Shown here in pieces: positions 1 through 7,913 of a DNA stretch of 20,316 nucleotides (the first letter of the stretch is position 1; every line of letters starts with the position of its first letter). Under the pieces are notes generated by a model, which saw only the letters and a program-made list of their open reading frames with translations, was not told the origin of the DNA and did no database searches. This DNA is from a virus: positions 1 through 20,316 of IMG/VR virus record IMGVR_UViG_3300032229_001122; one strand, 5' to 3'. The position numbers were made by a program, and so were the translations under genes.

Positions 1-123
1 CCCTTCGCGCCGAGACCCTCAAGAATCACCTGGATACGGAAATTCCGCGTCGGAGTAAAGGTATTGAGAGCCTGAAGCGTCACATTGAACTGATAGAGAG
101 ATTCAATGTGTCTGAAGATGGGC
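1..123. repeat. Terminal direct repeat, copy 1 (circular overlap)
   Basis: These 123 bases are identical to the last 123 bases of the window. The repeat lies within the reading frame of the major capsid protein candidate, and joining the ends restores one uninterrupted frame. It is therefore best read as the overlap of a circular sequence, giving a unit genome of about 20,193 bp. A linear genome with direct terminal repeats would split the capsid gene and is less likely. Confidence 0.93.
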
Positions 124-800
124 AGACGATAGACATAGCCGAAACCGTTGTTGACCGCGGTTTCGTTCTGAATGATCGCTGTAGCCGCCGTTCCTGGAAT
201 GTAGGCCACGTTTCCGCTGTAGCCGCTCACGCCGTAGCGCGACGGGAACAGATAGAGCGGCCCCTCTTCAAAGGTCGTCTGGTTGTAGCTGAATTTGAGA
301 TAGATCGACTCAAAAGCCGCCTGAGCAAGGTTGGTAGCCTGGACATCATCAGAGGCTTTGAGCTGCGATCCGAGTCCGGGATTGTTGGCAAGACCGAGGT
401 TATTACCGGTCTGCGAGGTCGTATCAACCTGACCAGAGACCAGCACACGGACCTGGATTGACGTAATCCATGCTTCCTGGCTGGCAGGCAGCTGACGCGA
501 CACACTCATATTGGTGTCAATTTTCGTCTTTGTATACTGCGTCGTTCCGTTCATCTCGGTCGTCTGCTGACCGACCGGAGTCGCAAAAAGCTCAAACTCG
601 TTCGCGTTGAAAGCCGTCCCCGCCGTGACTCGCGCCACGTCGTACAAGCGAAGCCCGTAGAACGAAGCCAGACGAGCGCCGGGGTTGGCCTGAATGATCT
701 GCTGGATCATTCCATACTGAGCCGGATCGACATGATCCAACGTTGATTTTGGAGCCACGCCCGCGAAGTTCACGCGGTTGGCAACTGGCATATATGACAT
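1..800 (-). CDS. Major capsid protein candidate, double jelly-roll type (N-terminal and central part; gene continues across the circle junction)
   Basis: Read on the minus strand from ATG at 800 and continued after position 1 into 20193-20181, this gives a 270-aa protein with a TAG stop. GGAG lies about 8 bases before the ATG. Visible features are DTNM-like 'TNMSVSRQLP' at about 96-105, a beta-rich 'IQVRVLVSG' at 115-123, 'GPLYLFPSRYG' at 180-190, and a C-terminal 'LPIF..IESLYQFNV' then 'RIQVILEGLG' at 226-264. From memory, similar DTNM...LP and final Q-F-x-V / R-x-x-L-x-G strands occur in double jelly-roll capsid proteins of tailless bacterial viruses. The length is close to the roughly 269-aa PM2 P2. 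Neighbouring membrane and beta-rich proteins fit a virion operon. The fold is inferred, not shown. An alternative start is the ATG at 791. Confidence 0.66.
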   Translation of the reverse strand, partial: MSYMPVANRVNFAGVAPKSTLDHVDPAQYGMIQQIIQANPGARLASFYGLRLYDVARVTAGTAFNANEFELFATPVGQQTTEMNGTTQYTKTKIDTNMSVSRQLPASQEAWITSIQVRVLVSGQVDTTSQTGNNLGLANNPGLGSQLKASDDVQATNLAQAAFESIYLKFSYNQTTFEEGPLYLFPSRYGVSGYSGNVAYIPGTAATAIIQNETAVNNGFGYVYRLPIFRHIESLYQFNVTLQALNTFTPTRNFRIQVILEGLGAK

Positions 801-858: not shown

Positions 859-1515
859 TTACATTGACATGGCATGAGCTGACTGATCGTCAGCATACGC
901 GCCATAAGGGACCATCCCAGGAGTCTGAATTCCAATTCCATTCATGCCGCTCGAATAAGCACGGTAGGGGTTGAGTCCGGGATAAGCAATCCCGATGCCC
1001 TTCACGCCCTGCGCCGCTGGAGCAGTCTCGGCCGGTCGAGGCAGGAAGACGCTCTGAGCCGTCGGAAGGATGAACGAGTTGATTACCTTCCCGCCCGCAA
1101 CGGCCATGCCGCCCAGGGTGATATCCTGCGAGAATCGCGAGAGCGGGCCGATCTTGTTAGCCAGCATTCCGAGCAGGTAGGCAACGCCCGCGGTTCGAGC
1201 AGCATCCGCCAGAGCGCCAGGACCGCCGATTGACGGGACCATGGTTGTGACGAACTGGGTCAGAGCGCCGCCACCCGCGAGGGTGAGACCCTTCGTCAGC
1301 AGGCCAAAGCCGCCGCCAGGGTTGCGACGCCGCGCGCGCCGATGCATGACGCTGCGACGCCGTTTCGGAGCCGTCGAAGCTGAATATGGGTTATGTCGCC
1401 GGGTCCGCTTGACCCGGCTGGATGACTTGCGCTTACGCATTGATTTTCCTCCAGTAGGATTGACGATCAGCAGGGAAGCCGGTCCCGGATTGATCAGTTT
1501 GACTGTTTTGGCCAT
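859..1515 (-). CDS. Basic NP-motif protein with hydrophobic glycine-rich core, likely virion protein
   Basis: 218 aa. The start at 1515 is chosen because GGAGGG lies 6 bases upstream; a longer frame from 1551 lacks a site. Residues 26-65 are extremely basic (Arg/Lys/Ser). Asn-Pro occurs at 9, 19, 42, 65 and 182, several directly after arginines (RRHNP, RRRNP). Residues 67-150 are Gly/Ala-rich and hydrophobic, with two or three possible membrane segments (about 71-93, 100-120, 132-151). The C-terminus carries two tandem copies of a 20-aa repeat, GIGI..PG..PY.AY, at about 173-192 and 193-212. It lies immediately upstream of the capsid gene in the same operon. A nucleic-acid-binding or membrane-associated minor virion protein fits, but no function is known. 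Confidence 0.85.
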   Translation of the reverse strand: MAKTVKLINPGPASLLIVNPTGGKSMRKRKSSSRVKRTRRHNPYSASTAPKRRRSVMHRRARRRNPGGGFGLLTKGLTLAGGGALTQFVTTMVPSIGGPGALADAARTAGVAYLLGMLANKIGPLSRFSQDITLGGMAVAGGKVINSFILPTAQSVFLPRPAETAPAAQGVKGIGIAYPGLNPYRAYSSGMNGIGIQTPGMVPYGAYADDQSAHAMSM

Positions 1516-1547
1516 TATCGACCCTCCATCATTCCCGCGCGGGAATG

Positions 1548-2639
1548 TCAATTGTGAATGCCGTCCGCTTCGATGTGGTATGCTCCGCCGTCGATGTGCA
1601 TTAAGCCCTCTTCATCAATGCGAAGCGTTGGACGCTCTCCGGTCTCCTCTCCCAGCTCGTGAAAGTAAATTGCCGGGGTAGGTTGTCCCAGGTGCGGTTT
1701 ATCCGTCTCATATTCGACGCGAACGATCTCGCCACACTCTTCGCCCGCGGGGTTTGCCCTGTAGCGCCCGCCGACCACGTGAAGCCGTTGCTTGTGATCT
1801 GCTGCCAGAATCGGAGCAGCCGCGCCATTGAATTTCCATTTGCGCCCGTCGGCTGTCTCGATCAGACGAAGCGCGCCAAGTTTGGCGACATTTGCCGGAG
1901 TGCCAGTCGGAGCGCTCACCGAGTTTTGGCGCTTTGCACGTTTGCCGCTGAAGCGCTCAAATAGCTCTGTGGTTTTGCTTTTCGCTTTGCCAGGATTGCG
2001 CCGCGCACGTCCCACAATGCGAAGTGCACGGCCAGTAAAAGCATCTTGCAGCCGATGCCATTCACTTATCTCACGTGGAGACGCTTCGCCCGCCTCCACC
2101 AAATCACGGAGGAGGAGCGCGCGCGGGGAATCGATCGACCGCGCCGCACTAGTTAAACTGGCGGAACCCACGTAACGCCGGGTTCCGCGTCGGGGATTTT
2201 GACGATTCTTGGCCGCGCGACCTTGTGTGTACTTGGGGTTGATATATCTGCTATTACTCGGAACGTCCACCAACCATTCATCTGCATGTGTGTTCACGCC
2301 AGGCGGCTGTATGTTGGATGAAGAGCGCCATTGCTCGTCAGCTAAAATTAACTGCTTAACATCCCTTATTGCATAGTCTAAGGTAATCGCAACTTCTTCC
2401 GAAAGCTGATCCTTAGTGAGTTTATAACTATCAGTAGATTTTGGTAGCAAATATCTTAATTCACTAAACAGATTATTTTCCAAGTATCCCGTTGCATAAC
2501 GTTCAGCGTACGCACCATTCCGCTTGTACAGCTCTTTGAGTAGTCGGTAAAGCTCATTTGCTTTAGTTGGTTGAAGTTTTAGCAACTTTAGAAACTGTTT
2601 TTTTTCTGTGACGGTCGGATTATGTTTTCGTCGACGCAT
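1548..2639 (-). CDS. Modular NP-linker protein with a conserved phage-type C-terminal domain
   Basis: 363 aa, with AAGGGAAG just upstream of the ATG at 2639. The protein starts MRRRKHNP, and Asn-Pro recurs at 7, 134, 148, 215 and 296, mostly with neighbouring Arg/Lys. Residues 9-105 are helical and charged. Residues 165-210 form a second short helical block. Residues about 224-363 look like one domain ending 'GEETGERPTL....G....GGAYHIEADGI.N'. From memory this ending (G-E-x-x-G-x-R-P ... GG-x-Y ... GI-x-N, with an F-x-G near its start) recurs in uncharacterised phage proteins that also follow RRNP-like sequences; I know no function. The AT-richer 5' half (about 2230-2640) contrasts with the GC-richer 3' half, suggesting mosaic origin. 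It sits among virion genes. Confidence 0.88.
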   Translation of the reverse strand: MRRRKHNPTVTEKKQFLKLLKLQPTKANELYRLLKELYKRNGAYAERYATGYLENNLFSELRYLLPKSTDSYKLTKDQLSEEVAITLDYAIRDVKQLILADEQWRSSSNIQPPGVNTHADEWLVDVPSNSRYINPKYTQGRAAKNRQNPRRGTRRYVGSASLTSAARSIDSPRALLLRDLVEAGEASPREISEWHRLQDAFTGRALRIVGRARRNPGKAKSKTTELFERFSGKRAKRQNSVSAPTGTPANVAKLGALRLIETADGRKWKFNGAAAPILAADHKQRLHVVGGRYRANPAGEECGEIVRVEYETDKPHLGQPTPAIYFHELGEETGERPTLRIDEEGLMHIDGGAYHIEADGIHN

Positions 2640-2657
2640 GGATCTTCCCTTGTTAAC

Positions 2658-2774
2658 CTAAACTTCAAAAGTGATGTAATGCCCTGTTTTAGTGTAAACC
2701 GTAGGGTTGCCATACTCGTCCAGGTCTGAGCCGTAATAGGCTGGCATGCTATGCAAGCCGGGGCCGTATTTCAT
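2658..2774 (-). CDS. Small 38-aa protein between two NP-linker genes
   Basis: An uninterrupted frame from ATG at 2774 to TAG at 2658 fills the gap between its neighbours, starting 5 bases after the upstream stop and ending 18 bases before the next start. The product begins MKYGPGLHSMPAYYG and ends in YITFEV. It is rich in Tyr and Gly and contains a 'YGNPTVY' stretch, so it shares the Asn-Pro motif of its neighbours. No clear ribosome site lies before the ATG; translation could be coupled to the upstream gene. Tight packing on both sides and the non-random composition support it. It could otherwise be a decayed fragment of a neighbouring module. Confidence 0.6.
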   Translation of the reverse strand: MKYGPGLHSMPAYYGSDLDEYGNPTVYTKTGHYITFEV

Positions 2775-2779
2775 CGCAA

Positions 2780-3985
2780 CTAAAGTGTGTAGATTATGGC
2801 TGTCTCAACTTCCCCCCCTACTGGGCCGGTTACACTGTTTTTATACGAAAAAAACGGATGCCCGTCATACTCAATCACCGCCCCCGCGGGAAGCTTGGCA
2901 ACATACGCCCGAACCGCTGTCTCCTCTTCGTCACTCAGCCCCGAATAGTCCCCGTACTCAATAGCAGGGATTGCCCAGGTCGGAATCAATGCTTCGTCCC
3001 ACTCAGGGTTGTTGCGTCGAGCGTTTGATTTTACATACCGCGCTGGGTTTTCTTTATACCATGGCGGGCCGCTTATTGGAGTAGTCGCCGGAGCTTTATC
3101 ACTCTCTGTTATCGTATAACCATCACTGATAATCCGCTCTTCAGCTGCGTCAAAATAGGATTCAGCAACATCAAGCATATTATGGTCAAACCTGCGATAC
3201 ACTCCCCCATAGTACACATAATAATCTGTTTGAGGATCATTCAATTGCACCACGCCCAGCGTTAAAACAATCCTATTTCCATCTTCTAATCGTTCAAATA
3301 CCACCCTGCGCATTTGAAAAACTTCTCTAGGATTATGCACCTTTGCAACGTCTAGATGATCAATTTTTTCCGCGTGTATGTGAGTGCCATTTCTCCGCTT
3401 GCCGTTTGGCGTATACTTCATGGTCCCCAAGCTGGTATACAGCCCGGTATAGCTCTCAAAAATTGACCGCAATTGATCAGCATAGACGCCCTCAATCGCT
3501 TTGAGCGTTGTGAGCTTAAGACCGCGATATTTCGCAAATGTTACTGTGTACAAATCATCAGGAGTCAATTCAATCGTTACAAAATTTGCTCCGGATTTAT
3601 TCTGTGGAATTTTAAATTGTAGCTTGTTTGAGCTGCCAACAAAGCTGCGACTCCCTGTCATCGTCGCAAACCGATTTCCGCCTAGTTGCGCGAAAATAAT
3701 ATCAGCCACCGCCGGATTCGTTTTTCTTTTTCGCGCCGTCTCTAACCGTTCCGCATGATACTGTCTCTGACGTTCAATGCGTTCACGCGCCGCAATATCT
3801 TCTCCGCCTCGCCCCAAATACATATCAGAGCTAACTTTTTCCGCAACATACTTGCCAGCACCATATTGCGCTTTCGCGCGCTTCACTGCTTCGACACTGG
3901 TAAAGCCGGGATAGATGCCAACTTCCACGCCATCGCGTGAAATCAGATAACGAGGATTTGATCGTCGAGCCATTTTCCGTTTCAT
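2780..3985 (-). CDS. Multi-domain NP-linker protein (mosaic of mobile-element domains)
   Basis: 401 aa. The start at 3985 has GGAG 9 bases upstream. Asn-Pro occurs at 10, 90, 218, 313 and 326, usually after basic residues, and these sites appear to separate modules. Residues 12-88 are a charged block. Residues 92-187 contain 'AQLGGNRFATMTGSRSF', then N-F-V-x-I-x-L, DLY and TGLY, matching from memory a domain common in phage and plasmid proteins. Residues 220-310 are a beta-rich module with YYVYYGG. Residues 328-401 contain 'AIEYGDYSGLSDEEE' and '..PFFSYKNS', matching another small mobile-element domain I have seen as separate proteins. It is not a known enzyme. Its place between anchored virion proteins and the capsid gene suggests a virion component or packaged cargo. 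Confidence 0.88.
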   Translation of the reverse strand: MKRKMARRSNPRYLISRDGVEVGIYPGFTSVEAVKRAKAQYGAGKYVAEKVSSDMYLGRGGEDIAARERIERQRQYHAERLETARKRKTNPAVADIIFAQLGGNRFATMTGSRSFVGSSNKLQFKIPQNKSGANFVTIELTPDDLYTVTFAKYRGLKLTTLKAIEGVYADQLRSIFESYTGLYTSLGTMKYTPNGKRRNGTHIHAEKIDHLDVAKVHNPREVFQMRRVVFERLEDGNRIVLTLGVVQLNDPQTDYYVYYGGVYRRFDHNMLDVAESYFDAAEERIISDGYTITESDKAPATTPISGPPWYKENPARYVKSNARRNNPEWDEALIPTWAIPAIEYGDYSGLSDEEETAVRAYVAKLPAGAVIEYDGHPFFSYKNSVTGPVGGEVETAIIYTL

Positions 3986-3990
3986 TGATT

Positions 3991-4521
3991 TTATCTCCGC
4001 AAAAGAATCACCAGGCCAACCACGCCGAGCGCCGCCAATAACAAACCGCTGGTGGAGTCGACTCCAACCGCGCCGCCGATGGTCCCGCCAAGTTGATCGA
4101 GCACGTTGACCCCTGTCGAGCTGCGTGGCGCTGGGGTTGTCGTTATGGCCGTTGTCCCGCTGGCCGGGTCATATGTCTCCGCCGTAAATGTCACGCTGGC
4201 ATAATTCAGCTTTGAATAAAGCCCGGAGAGGACCGACAACACCGCATCTTTCAAGTGTTGATCAGACCCATACTCACGCCCGGAGTAGGATTCAACTACA
4301 ATGAACGGATTGACCACGCCCGCGAGTTGATAGACCTTGACCAGACCGCTGACATATCCGGAGCGCGAGAGCGCCGCTTCCATCCGCGTCATAAGATCGG
4401 GCAGCTCCTCAAACGACAAATCTGCGTACCAGTCAGACAATTCAACACCGAGTTGAAAAGGCGCGCCCTGATGGACCGGTCTACCTGTCAGCGCCCCAAG
4501 ACCATTATTTCCGCAACACAT
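3991..4521 (-). CDS. C-terminally membrane-anchored virion protein candidate
   Basis: 176 aa, starting directly after the stop of the preceding gene (TAAATG). An N-terminal CC-containing leader is followed by a mixed alpha/beta domain at about 20-120, a Thr/Ala/Pro-rich linker at 118-140, and a single C-terminal hydrophobic helix at about 157-174 ending ILLRR. The layout (folded domain, flexible linker, one C-terminal membrane helix, final arginines) is shared with the next three genes upstream. This is what I would expect for small proteins tying a protein shell to an internal membrane, as in PM2-type viruses. The sequence itself matches no family I recognise. Confidence 0.85.
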   Translation of the reverse strand: MCCGNNGLGALTGRPVHQGAPFQLGVELSDWYADLSFEELPDLMTRMEAALSRSGYVSGLVKVYQLAGVVNPFIVVESYSGREYGSDQHLKDAVLSVLSGLYSKLNYASVTFTAETYDPASGTTAITTTPAPRSSTGVNVLDQLGGTIGGAVGVDSTSGLLLAALGVVGLVILLRR

Positions 4522-5145
4522 TTACCGCCGCCTTCCCGAGGTCAGCGCGATCAACACCACGCCACCCGCGATTATTGCCCACCATGGGAACGCCGACTCC
4601 TGAACCGTATCGCCTGGCGTGATCTGTGAGACTGGTACACACCGCCCTTGAGTAATACTGAATTGCTGTCCCGCCGGACAAGGCGGAAGCTGACATTTTT
4701 TCGTTTTCGGATCGTACACAAACGGAGCAGGACAAGCACCCGCCGCGGTTGGTTTCGGTCTCGTCACTGGCCGCGCGGGGACCGCTCCTGCCGGTTGTCC
4801 TGGCCGCGTCGGAGCCGTAGGAGACGGAGCCGGGAAAGGCACACAAGCGTAGGGGTCATTGACAGGGTGATATTGGCCGCGAGGACAATAGCCCGGCAGT
4901 GGCGCTGTCGTCGGCTCTGTCGGACCATAGACCGGAAGATAATCCGCGGGATTGACGCTCGGTCCCCCGCCCCAAAATGAGCTACCAGAATCGAACGGAA
5001 ATCGATCCCACCATGCGCCCCAGTCCATCCCCGCGCCATCTCCGCCAGTGTCAGACGGCAAAAAGCCGAGTCCTCGCGCCGGTCGTGTCAGTACGCCAGG
5101 AACCATCACGGGTTGTCGGATTGGTCGTCGAGTGGGCCAGGCCAT
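4522..5145 (-). CDS. Proline- and cysteine-rich tail-anchored protein
   Basis: 207 aa. An Arg/Pro-rich N-terminus is followed by a Trp/Gly/Pro-rich stretch (about 40-75). There are three Cys-pair repeats of form C-P-x-G/P...C-x-P, with 12 to 13 residues between the cysteines, at about 87-101, 138-151 and 155-168; the first two are separated by a long Pro/Ala linker. The protein ends in a hydrophobic helix at about 186-203 followed by GRRR. The paired cysteines suggest disulfides, so the soluble part should face an oxidising compartment or the virion exterior. It belongs to the set of four consecutive C-terminally anchored proteins and is probably a virion surface or vertex component. Function unknown. 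Confidence 0.85.
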   Translation of the reverse strand: MAWPTRRPIRQPVMVPGVLTRPARGLGFLPSDTGGDGAGMDWGAWWDRFPFDSGSSFWGGGPSVNPADYLPVYGPTEPTTAPLPGYCPRGQYHPVNDPYACVPFPAPSPTAPTRPGQPAGAVPARPVTRPKPTAAGACPAPFVYDPKTKKCQLPPCPAGQQFSITQGRCVPVSQITPGDTVQESAFPWWAIIAGGVVLIALTSGRRR

Positions 5146-5149
5146 GAGA

Positions 5150-5617
5150 TTATCTCCGCATCAACGCAATAGCCGCGATAGCCGCGACTGGTATCCACAC
5201 CGGGACCGCAGTCCCGCCGAGATCAAATGTCGTCGAGAGGATGCCGCCGCCGCTGGCCGCGCTGGTTGCTGGCTGCGTCGAGATAGCAGGATAGACATTG
5301 AAGGTCGTCATGGCCGTGTAGATCTGGCCTTGTTCATCCTTGATCAAGATTTCCTTGATCCATGCTCCCTGCTGGTCCTCTGCCCAAGGCGCGCCCATCT
5401 CAATAGACGCGGTTCCATTGGCTTCCGTTTTATGGCCGTAACTGGCGTTTAGCTCACCGGTCGCTACGCCGTCTTTGTAGCTACTCCAAAATATTTCCGC
5501 GTTTGGTGGAGCGCCGATAATCAAATATCTGCCCTTCTGCCCAACGCGCTGCACCGGTGAATCAATCCGGAGTGTAATAGGTATAGCGCCGCCTAAGCCT
5601 CTCAAACGCCAAGCCAT
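5150..5617 (-). CDS. Ig-like beta-sandwich protein with C-terminal membrane anchor
   Basis: 155 aa. Residues about 14-108 look like an immunoglobulin-like beta-sandwich: 'GRYLIIGAPPNAEIFW', then YGHKT..NGTASIE, then G-A-W-I-K-E-I-L-I. From memory this GAP-N-A / YG-x-T-x-x-NG / GxW-x-E pattern is seen in adhesin-like and virion-decorating Ig domains. A Ser/Thr/Gly linker at 112-130 leads to one hydrophobic helix at about 136-153 ending ALMRR. It probably displays an Ig-like domain from a membrane, either binding the capsid shell or carbohydrate. The order and spacing with its neighbours indicate co-expression. Confidence 0.85.
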   Translation of the reverse strand: MAWRLRGLGGAIPITLRIDSPVQRVGQKGRYLIIGAPPNAEIFWSSYKDGVATGELNASYGHKTEANGTASIEMGAPWAEDQQGAWIKEILIKDEQGQIYTAMTTFNVYPAISTQPATSAASGGGILSTTFDLGGTAVPVWIPVAAIAAIALMRR

Positions 5618-5618
5618 A

Positions 5619-5924
5619 TTAACGACCCTTCTTTCCGATCAGGAACGCACCAACAACGATCCCGATCAAAGCCGCTGTCCACCAATTGATTGTAAATCCG
5701 CCCGCATTGACCGCGCCTGGCGACAGCGCCGGACCGCCTGGAGTGTTCACGATAGTTCCGCCAGGAACACCAACACCCCAACCACCGGAGCGAAATCGAG
5801 GATCATCGGGCGAAATATAAGCGCCCTGACCAACGCGCGCGCCAACGACATCAATTCCGCGATTGATGGTCTGACCCCACCAGGGCATGTCATACGAAGA
5901 AAACAAAGCGTTCGGATCTACCAT
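5619..5924 (-). CDS. Small tail-anchored protein
   Basis: 101 aa. The start at 5924 follows AGGA by 8 bases, and the upstream gene's TGA ends 2 bases before the ATG. The first 75 residues are Gly/Pro/Asp-rich and look extended. Residues about 78-97 form one membrane helix (WWTAALIGIVVGAFLIG) followed by KKGR. This is the first of four consecutive genes with the same C-terminal anchor plus basic tail, and it lies directly after the protease-like gene. A structural role in a membrane-containing virion is inferred. No family is recognised. Confidence 0.83.
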   Translation of the reverse strand: MVDPNALFSSYDMPWWGQTINRGIDVVGARVGQGAYISPDDPRFRSGGWGVGVPGGTIVNTPGGPALSPGAVNAGGFTINWWTAALIGIVVGAFLIGKKGR

Positions 5925-5925
5925 A

Positions 5926-6465
5926 TCAGAATATCCTATACGTCCATTCAGAGTGCGCGGGGTTACGCCAATTCACGCCCGCGAGATGCAAGCCTTGTTG
6001 GCCATCGGCTGTCGGATCGAGGGCCACCCATTCACCATTTACCAGCGCCTCACAATAGACATGATCAAATTCAGAGCCGTTGAACTGCGCCACAAATCGA
6101 GGATGATGGCCAATGGCCGCGAGTAGCGCCGCGAGAAGAGTACATTTGTCGTCACAGTCACCCGATTGCAATTCGAGCGTGGTCATCGGATCTTGAACAC
6201 GTTCGGTCTCGACCGGATCGAGCCGATAAGCGATCTGATCCCGACAATAGGCCAAAAGCGCGGCCAGCTCTGCATGATGGTGATGGCCGAGGATGCCAGA
6301 ACAAATTGAGAGAGCAGCGCGCCGAATGCGCTCATCAAGATAGCCCGCATAATCCGGAGCAATCTCACCGCGTACCGCTGCCGCCATTGTGGCCAGTGTT
6401 CGCCGCGTCCCTTCTGCGCCGTCTGCAAGCCGCTCTCTCTGAATTGAAACTTGCCTGTTAAACAC
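5926..6465 (-). CDS. Transglutaminase-like cysteine protease
   Basis: 179 aa from GTG at 6465, chosen because TAGGG lies 7 bases upstream; a TTG at 6534 (202 aa) is possible, and the frame is open further. Residues about 60-155 match the transglutaminase-like fold: 'LQSGDCDDKCTLLAALLAAIG' at 99-119 with catalytic Cys104, 'FDHVYCEALVNGEW' with His135, and 'VALDPTAD' with Asp150. All three triad residues are present. In phages such proteins are common near structural genes, and in bacteria the fold acts as a peptidase or amidase. Being first in the late operon suggests a processing enzyme for virion precursors or a peptidoglycan-active virion enzyme; neither is shown. It also carries an RNP motif near the C-terminus (167-169). 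Confidence 0.87.
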   Translation of the reverse strand: MFNRQVSIQRERLADGAEGTRRTLATMAAAVRGEIAPDYAGYLDERIRRAALSICSGILGHHHHAELAALLAYCRDQIAYRLDPVETERVQDPMTTLELQSGDCDDKCTLLAALLAAIGHHPRFVAQFNGSEFDHVYCEALVNGEWVALDPTADGQQGLHLAGVNWRNPAHSEWTYRIF

Positions 6466-6620
6466 ACCATTTGCCCTAACAAATGCGAACAATTCCGCAA
6501 GAGCAGACTCAACCCGTAAGACGTATTTTGTCAATGGCGTTTTTTTCGGAAGCGTGGCAACATCAATAGCGCGCGAATGGCGCGAACAATGGCAAAACAA
6601 TGTAATCACATGGTGAAAAA
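6466..6620. promoter_or_regulatory. Divergent intergenic region between the two transcription blocks
   Basis: These roughly 155 bases separate the first minus-strand gene from the first plus-strand gene and should hold both promoters. On the minus strand there is a perfect TTGACA beginning at 6534, but no acceptable -10 box at 16-18 bases. No sigma70-like pair is clear in either direction, so late transcription may need an activator or another sigma factor. A tiny frame ATG-GTG-AAA-AAA-TGA at 6610-6624 overlaps the start of the plus-strand gene. Confidence 0.5.
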
Positions 6621-7913
6621 ATGACACGAAAAAAAACTGTATTACCTGACGCCGAAAGCACTTCCCTGCCCTCTGAACCTGTCGCCGTGCAAACTCACGT
6701 CGTAACAACTCGATACAAAAAAGAAATTCCAGTGAGCGAGGTGGAACAATCGCCGGATGAGGATTCAGGGCTGATCGAGCCTGAAATCTATGTCGAGGAT
6801 TACGAGGGACCAGAGATCGAACCGCCCGCCCGCTTTGCTCCAACCATCGAGCCGCCGCCGAATGCAAATGATTCTATCGCTCAAATGCTGGCCGATCTGC
6901 AAATCGAGAAGCGCGCGCACTCCTGGACGATGGTTGTTGAACGTCTCCCAAATTACGATCGAGATGGGCGCGGGGATGTCGGAGCCAAACGAGTAAACTG
7001 TGGAACGCGCGCAATGTCCGAAGATTTCATCGAGGAGATTCGCCGCGAGTTTGCCAGGCCCAGCAAGCCAAATCATTTCCGAGTGACGATCAAACGAGAC
7101 GGAAAGATTTTCGCTCACTGGCCAGACGTGATCAGTCTCGAACCACCAGCGCCGGAAGAGTTGCCAGCGCTCGATGCGCAATTTGCGCCCGCGCCGCCAG
7201 TCTCCGCGCTTCCCGCTTCCGCTCCTCCGCCAGGGTTGACGGATCTGGTAAAACAGCTCAAACAGCTCAAAGAGATTCAGTCCCTTCTCTCTCCGGAACC
7301 GATTGCCAATCCTGCCGCCGGATCGCTGACCGAAGAGGCGGCGCTGTTGCGCCTATTGTCGTCGAGTGATGAGGTCATCTCGAAGGTAACAGATAGGATT
7401 TCAAAGAAACTCTTTCGTGACGATCATGCTACCGATGGCGCGGAATGGATGCCGCTTGTCAAGTCGTTTGTTGATAACGGACCCGCCATTGTGGCCCAAA
7501 TATTTCAAGGCCTTCAACAATTGCGCTCCGCGCCGGTTGCTGTAGAATCGCCAGGACAAGCGCCAATGGTCGCCAATCCCGCGCCGCTCCCGCCGCCGGT
7601 CTCGCCTCAACAACCTACGCCACCGGTCGAGAATGGCCCCGCGCCAGAGTTGGTGCTACTCGGGAATGTGATCAGATATCTCGAAATCAATGCACCGGTA
7701 GAGGCCGCTGCCACGTTTGTTGATGCATATACAGAGCAAAACCCAGCTTTGAATCCACTGGTTGAATCGTTCCTTGCAATGTCGCCGGACGATTGCCGCG
7801 CATTTATGAAAACCTTCTTCCCGAATGCCGCGCCAATCCTGGACCGTGAGACGGCAAGCGATTGGATCTCACGCTTGCAAAAGATTCTCTCCGTCGAGGA
7901 GGTAGATAAATGA
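6621..7913 (+). CDS. Proline-rich multidomain protein of unknown function
   Basis: 430 aa. The N-terminus (1-95) is acidic and disordered. Residues about 98-175 form a compact domain with 'VVERLPNY' and 'FIEEIRREFA', then V-T-I-K-R-D-G-K-I ... PDV ... LEPP. A Pro/Ala linker follows (178-206). Residues 207-300 are helical, with L-K-Q-L repeats and a hydrophobic stretch, then a second Pro-rich linker (about 313-345). A helical C-terminal domain spans 347-430 ('DDCRAFMKTFFPNAAPIL'). No Walker A, polymerase or nuclease motif is visible. Only a weak GGTG precedes the ATG. It opens the plus-strand block and overlaps the next gene by ATGA, so the two are translationally coupled. Modules joined by Pro-rich linkers suggest a scaffold or adaptor role. 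Function unknown. Confidence 0.88.
   Translation: MTRKKTVLPDAESTSLPSEPVAVQTHVVTTRYKKEIPVSEVEQSPDEDSGLIEPEIYVEDYEGPEIEPPARFAPTIEPPPNANDSIAQMLADLQIEKRAHSWTMVVERLPNYDRDGRGDVGAKRVNCGTRAMSEDFIEEIRREFARPSKPNHFRVTIKRDGKIFAHWPDVISLEPPAPEELPALDAQFAPAPPVSALPASAPPPGLTDLVKQLKQLKEIQSLLSPEPIANPAAGSLTEEAALLRLLSSSDEVISKVTDRISKKLFRDDHATDGAEWMPLVKSFVDNGPAIVAQIFQGLQQLRSAPVAVESPGQAPMVANPAPLPPPVSPQQPTPPVENGPAPELVLLGNVIRYLEINAPVEAAATFVDAYTEQNPALNPLVESFLAMSPDDCRAFMKTFFPNAAPILDRETASDWISRLQKILSVEEVDK

Follow-up and report, generated by a model that had tools for sequence, protein, structure and literature searches.

The IMG/VR virus record IMGVR_UViG_3300032229_001122 is a stretch of 20,316 bases (the window) that encodes three proteins, named p218, p363 and p401 after their lengths in amino acids (aa), each containing the dipeptide asparagine-proline (NP) five times. 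An initial annotation had pointed to this repetition, usually after clusters of arginine and lysine, and had suggested that NP could be a cleavage site, a binding tag or a domain-shuffling joint. Comparison with related viruses leaves almost no doubt that NP is a shuffling seam between exchangeable modules in p363 and p401. The genes are as follows.

Positions 859..1515, minus strand: p218, with a basic N-terminal tail carrying an NP doublet (INPGPASLLIVNP) and RRxNP repeats, then a hydrophobic region.
Positions 1548..2639, minus strand: p363, an NP-joint protein that ends in a constant F(N/H/S)GRP...GIHN module.
Positions 2658..2774, minus strand: an open reading frame (ORF) of 38 aa between the p363 and p401 genes.
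Positions 2780..3985, minus strand: p401, an NP-joint protein with an NPRYLIS module, a phrog_9437 domain, a third domain and a DUF6926-like C-terminal module.

The NP counts and positions given earlier are exact and lie far above chance. NP is found at residues 9, 19, 42, 65 and 182 of p218 (5 against 0.62 expected from composition), at residues 7, 134, 148, 215 and 296 of p363 (5 against 0.89) and at residues 10, 90, 218, 313 and 326 of p401 (5 against 0.81). The single copies reported in the 38-aa ORF (residue 23) and near the end of a transglutaminase-like ORF (residue 302) were also found. Counts in the remaining genes of the window are near expectation, the largest exception being p430, with 4 against 1.7 and no basic context. 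In 15 module proteins from the window and related viruses NP occurs 76 times against 12.7 ± 3.5 in shuffled sequences (z 17.7) and is the most enriched of the 400 dipeptides; the next is RN (z 5.0). An independent set of 22 proteins gave 88 against 17.

Arg or Lys occupies positions -3, -2 and -1 of NP in the 15 module proteins at frequencies of 0.47, 0.55 and 0.36 against a background of 0.17, and acidic residues make up 1–5% at the positions just before NP. The motif is roughly (R/K)(R/K)xNP, with the basic side mostly upstream only. A preceding Arg/Lys cluster is present at roughly 9 of the 15 NPs in p218, p363 and p401 and absent from the rest; p218 NP19 and NP182 and p401 NP218 and NP313 are among those with no more than one basic residue in the preceding six. 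In addition, 22 of 136 NP-NP spacings are exactly 10, which gives an NP-x8-NP doublet, 10 residues in spacing, common to relatives of p218 (INPGPASLLIVNP) and to module proteins (NPAELVLMGANP). This spacing occurs at window positions 1456-1491 and in L135, L136, L139, L141, L149, L147, L148 and L030. The Arg/Lys-rich context, the avoidance of acids before NP and the presence of several NPs in the basic tail of p218, a membrane-associated protein, would suit a turn-forming nucleic-acid-binding motif that ties the modules to the packaged genome. However, the basic enrichment lies mainly upstream of NP and both conserved doublets are hydrophobic inside, and a DNA-binding tag is considered improbable.

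The five NP sites of p401 and its best-matched domain are located as follows.

Positions 3953..3958, minus strand: NP10 (ARRSNP, then RYLIS), directly before the first beta strand of module 1.
Positions 3713..3718, minus strand: NP90 (RKRKTNP, then AVADII), the joint between module 1 and the phrog_9437 domain.
Positions 3416..3712, minus strand: the phrog_9437 domain, from a profile search.
Positions 3329..3334, minus strand: NP218 (DHLDVAKVHNP), at the end of the low-confidence linker 189-220.
Positions 3044..3049, minus strand: NP313, within the low-confidence linker 301-333.
Positions 3005..3010, minus strand: NP326 (ARRNNP), at the start of the DUF6926-like module (334-380).

The NPRY at NP10 is invariant among aligned relatives. 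The phrog_9437 match (E 1.3e-29) covers residues 93-186 and profile positions 3-98 of about 98 aa. This domain is a stand-alone gene of about 95-100 aa in many tailed phages, and the start of the stand-alone proteins aligns with NP90. In the relative G001 the same N-terminal module reaches the homologous NP, at residue 99, and an unrelated domain of the phrog_2579 type comes next; the linker 189-220 recurs in G002 and G003 ahead of different modules. The earlier statement that RRNP stretches precede unrelated domains in other phage proteins is also confirmed. The C-terminal module is a probable distant relative of DUF6926 (PF21977), judging from a profile match of 24.1 bits (E 4.5e-5) that falls below the gathering cut-off of 27 bits. 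In an AlphaFold model of p401 built with 44 sequences, NP90 falls in the loop that connects helix 64-88 to helix 93-101, the latter opening the phrog_9437 domain with a predicted local distance difference test score (pLDDT) of 90-98. The low-confidence stretches 189-220, with NP218, and 301-333, with NP313 and NP326, set off the third and fourth domains. The model therefore places all five NPs at domain edges or in linkers, as had been proposed, and none of them is buried within a folded domain.

Such placement would also be expected of a pure linker, that is, a basic-NP hinge or helix cap between domains that fold independently, with no partner that reads NP and with seams at NP only since breaks elsewhere harm the domains. 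Asn-Pro classically forms turns and helix N-caps, every p401 NP lies at an edge or in a linker, and the breakpoints described below coincide with domain ends. Yet linkers generally need no single invariant dipeptide, and NP is enriched with a z of 17.7. It also occurs where a joint is not required, at the very start of proteins (MRRRKHNP, MARRSNP) and in the p218 N-terminal tail, and the basic residues are position-specific and one-sided. A linker and nothing else is regarded as an unlikely account.

In p363 the sites are distributed as follows.

Positions 2616..2621, minus strand: NP7 (MRRRKHNP), N-terminal.
Positions 2235..2240, minus strand: NP134, the 18 residues up to which (HADEWLVDVPSNSRYINP) match a module end of G004 (HSDTWIEDVPSSSKYVNP).
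Positions 2193..2198, minus strand: NP148, the start of module B; homology to G001 begins at residue 147.
Positions 1992..1997, minus strand: NP215 (ARRNP), the joint between module B and the C-terminal module.
Positions 1749..1754, minus strand: NP296, inside the C-terminal module; distant homologues have a longer insert there.

When p363 is aligned with its relatives, entire blocks are present or absent between NP motifs. At the NP215 site G001 holds two additional cassettes, and in G002 module B is gone and the RRNP repeats abut (SNPTKRGRRNPRKRSRRNPP). The stretch common to HADEWLVDVPSNSRYINP and HSDTWIEDVPSSSKYVNP is probably a recombination scar. The neighbouring 38-aa ORF matches the C-terminal 38 aa of a 297-aa module protein in a relative at 87% identity, and the module that ends in this sequence is still whole in G003; by this likeness the ORF is a remnant, the tail of a longer module.

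The relatives come from scans in which p218, the capsid protein and the final module of p363 served as queries. Seven are close, namely G001-G006 and the contig L017 from a metagenome-assembled genome (MAG); the wider set consists of viral contigs, mostly of 32-50 kb. Recent exchanges are visible at the DNA level among the close relatives. G003 and G004 are 98.9% and 96% identical in DNA outside a single differing cassette; their identity stops a few codons past one NP, after NPKRRGN, and resumes at the first base of the next NP. Between G005 and G006 one cassette has been inserted and one swapped, with breakpoints after KKQNP, before QNPTPDQ, after RE(N/S)NP and before SNPSVK. The breakpoints of the cassettes in both pairs lie on NP or within 5 codons of it, and more breakpoints at NP were found in the wider set (L135/L136/L141, L049/L140 and L154/L156). 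Of the ends of BLASTP high-scoring segment pairs, 55% lie no more than 5 aa from an NP, against 25% under circular shifts of the NP positions (p=0.0002), and in the independent set of 22 proteins 58% do so, against 20% (p=0.0003).

Breakpoints precise to a few codons could also come from a DNA recombination site, in which a sequence recognised by a recombinase is conserved and NP is merely its translation. Over 61 NP sites Asn is encoded by AAT 32 times and by AAC 29 times, against a background of 70 and 63, the Pro codons (CCG 24, CCT 15, CCC 13, CCA 9) are close to background, and the flanking DNA varies from site to site. Because of this background usage and variable flanks a recombinase site is very improbable, and it was rejected on the NP codon usage; the codons indicate that the peptide rather than a DNA site is under selection.

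The phrog_9437 domain lies between joints in three proteins, that is, after NP90 in the window, in L140 (residues 284-380, between NP280 and NP385) and in L049. It is preceded by KRKTNP in the window and by KRNPRN or GRRN in L140 and L049, the joint of L049 being RRN...NP. The N-termini of L140 and L049 carry an HNH/endonuclease VII-like zinc domain as the first NP-delimited module. A cassette at 6914-7231 of L002 matches phrog_2579, 'ParB C-terminal domain'. The phrog_2579-type domain, which we take to resemble an ADP-ribosyltransferase-like domain, is also present in 168 named phage records, mostly of mycobacteriophages. The array usually opens with the NPRYL module and closes with the F(N/H/S)GRP...GI(H/V)N module. 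In G005 the whole array forms a single 696-aa ORF and in the window it is split into three, so covalent linkage of the modules seems dispensable.

The array of p401 and p363 lies just upstream of the capsid gene, with late proteins that are probably membrane-anchored on its other side. The neighbouring features are as follows.

Positions 3..800, minus strand, cut by the window edge: a putative major capsid protein, jelly-roll by a weak model.
Positions 5926..6867, minus strand: the transglutaminase-like ORF (PF01841, 43.2 bits against a cut-off of 23).

The best PDB match of the weak capsid model (pLDDT 58.5) is Sulfolobus polyhedral virus 1 (SPV1; E 5.6e-4), and nearly all of its other top matches are viral jelly-roll capsids. 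A profile of the capsid protein matched relatives in 4/4 and 14/17 of the wider set, and the transglutaminase-like gene is present in 18 of 20 NP-joint viruses tested; because both are so widespread, these viruses look like one broad group. A PHROGs search of the window proteins found no tail, portal or terminase gene, and one late protein carries an S74 chaperone domain. The group probably consists of uncultivated, small, tailless phages. G006 (L009/L019) has identical contig ends of 87 bp, which would fit a circular genome of about 18.6 kb. Window positions 3991-5924 encode four small consecutive proteins, each with a terminal hydrophobic stretch followed by Arg/Lys; from these features they are probable C-terminally anchored virion membrane proteins. 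No near DNA match to the window was found among named phages, and the module proteins have no close protein relative there except for the phrog_9437 domain and the swapped-in phrog_2579-type domain. No matches were obtained in an NCBIfam search, in a plasmid search for relatives of the module proteins or in a viral scan with the entire 401-aa protein as query. The genome collection gave a single match, L017, in a MAG labelled Patescibacteria, which is too weak for naming a host.

The T4-like phages offer a parallel for what NP may do. L/I-x-E is the cleavage motif of the T4 prohead protease gp21 (PMC9026906). In ten T4-like fusions the phrog_9437 domain follows L/I-x-E within a few residues, and a gp21-type S77 protease gene is present in 9 of the 10 contigs with such fusions. 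NP would thus occupy the position of the T4-like head-targeting or processing signal. L/I-x-E directly before phrog_9437 was not found in the window, L140 or L049. In these ten T4-like contigs (L060, L061, L062, L067, L069, L072, L092, L097, L098 and L105) phrog_9437 is the last module, and the proteins contain EGKLTE repeats or other L/I-x-E sites; they are candidate multi-cargo internal head proteins.

NP appears to be more than a hinge, because it occurs at N-termini and in the p218 tail without a joint, because the doublet recurs, and because phrog_9437 follows L/I-x-E in T4-like phages. That it is a functional peptide signal and not a mere linker is rated as fairly likely. On this view p363 and p401 belong together as two parts of a single hypervariable cassette array in a late or virion gene cluster, with each module headed by a short basic-x-Asn-Pro peptide. 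The comparisons show that the cassettes are exchanged whole because the seams fall at this peptide, which most likely also acts as a short linear signal read once per module. It may mark the modules for virion incorporation, for proteolytic release there, or for both, much like the capsid-targeting/L-x-E signal of T4, and the modules would then travel in the particle as accessory cargo for the next host. A virion-targeting or processing signal for each module that doubles as a shuffling seam is the best reading and is held to be somewhat probable. The part that makes NP a virion cargo signal, drawn by analogy, is put at an even chance. Both the parallel with T4-like phages and the NPs at protein N-termini point towards a tag or a processing signal without proving it.

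As a special case of this best reading, a viral enzyme, perhaps the transglutaminase-like cysteine enzyme, may cut at or near NP during maturation and free the modules as separate packaged proteins. The transglutaminase-like gene is the obvious candidate partner of NP because it co-occurs with NP-joint proteins, being found in the 18 of 20 viruses given above and in neither of the two T4-like contigs tested. The listed ORF is over-long at its N-terminus and overlaps a divergent 430-aa gene, and its homologues start later; its real start is probably well downstream, and NP23 and NP35 precede this likely start. The homologues have a common C-terminus, WRNPxxxEWxYxIF/W. That T4-like phages place L/I-x-E and gp21 before the same phrog_9437 domain, and that the array exists as one ORF or three, would also agree with a protease signal. 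On the other hand, most proteases cut poorly at bonds beside Pro, the functions of PF01841 proteins vary widely, and co-occurrence inside one virus group is weak evidence. A protease signal is accordingly rated doubtful, as is actual cleavage at NP by the same analogy. More speculative still, and unlikely, is a second, independently evolved injectable-cargo system, in which modules would be targeted to the virion and released at basic-x-NP by a virus-encoded enzyme, perhaps the transglutaminase-like one. The cargo domain would then be common with T4-like phages and the address label different.

Several observations weigh against a signal carried by each module. The proposal of a domain-shuffling joint stood for p363 and p401, from homologues, DNA breakpoints, stand-alone relatives of modules and fold prediction, and failed for p218, for the 38-aa ORF and for p363 NP296, an exception that by alignment is no joint. 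The NPs of p218 lie in its basic N-terminal tail and its C-terminal tail, no module exchange was seen among its relatives, and on this comparison they are not module joints. The NP of the 38-aa ORF is DP in relatives and hence a chance occurrence; it was rejected as a motif because it is not conserved. The boundary evidence is partly redundant, one constant C-terminal module recurring in many pairs, and the circular-shift test retains this redundancy in its null. A Foldseek search of the p401 model against the PDB gave no match at E<=0.001. The S77 prohead protease (PF03420) was found in 0 of 11 NP-joint viruses, whose records may be fragments, by the same search that recovered it in 9 of the 10 T4-like contigs. 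The transglutaminase-like gene co-occurs with the NP-joint proteins but may have another job, and a basic-NP stretch might be no more than a good hinge.

Near the N-terminus of p218 and its close relatives NP is part of NPGP (...INPGP...), which recalls ribosome skipping of the 2A type. The NPGP is in p218 and not at the module joints, and 2A needs an upstream D-x-E, missing in p218, and works on eukaryotic ribosomes. Skipping of this type is hardly credible, and it was rejected since NPGP occurs only in p218.

A search of the open-access literature returned nothing on an RRNP or Asn-Pro motif in phage, whether as a linker, as a capsid cleavage site or with DUF6926, and no prior description of the NP joint motif was found there. 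With NP as a plain sequence marker, phage proteins that otherwise resist annotation can be divided into modules, and the start of a module can be predicted. The motif also ties phrog_9437, a widespread domain, to two unrelated signal systems, NP here and L/I-x-E with gp21 in T4-like phages, and T4-like phages that can be cultured now allow a direct test of whether this domain is packaged and ejected. Should NP prove to signal packaging or processing, proteins inside the phage particle would have a new kind of address label; if the modules are injectable cargo, RRNP could help to pick out virion-delivered domains computationally in viral dark matter.

Among known systems, the T4 internal head proteins (IPI-III and Alt; PMC9026906) likewise have a short signal ahead of variable accessory domains, encoded in the head gene region. 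Here, in contrast, the signal is basic-x-NP, occurs several times per protein and stands at most joints, and the virus is probably tailless, with a putative jelly-roll capsid and no S77 protease found. Because the S77 protease and L/I-x-E were both looked for and not found, the likeness is one of analogy and not of membership. Domain-shuffled phage endolysins are similar as mosaic proteins that exchange whole domains, and we know of no universal joint peptide in them. Polymorphic toxin delivery proteins have a conserved motif before an exchangeable C-terminal domain, such as VENN in CdiA and the core motif of Rhs. What the two systems appear to share is a short conserved peptide that marks the exchange point of unrelated domains; they differ in that p363, p401 and their relatives have the motif at most joints and modules at internal and terminal positions alike, with no evident toxin/immunity pair.

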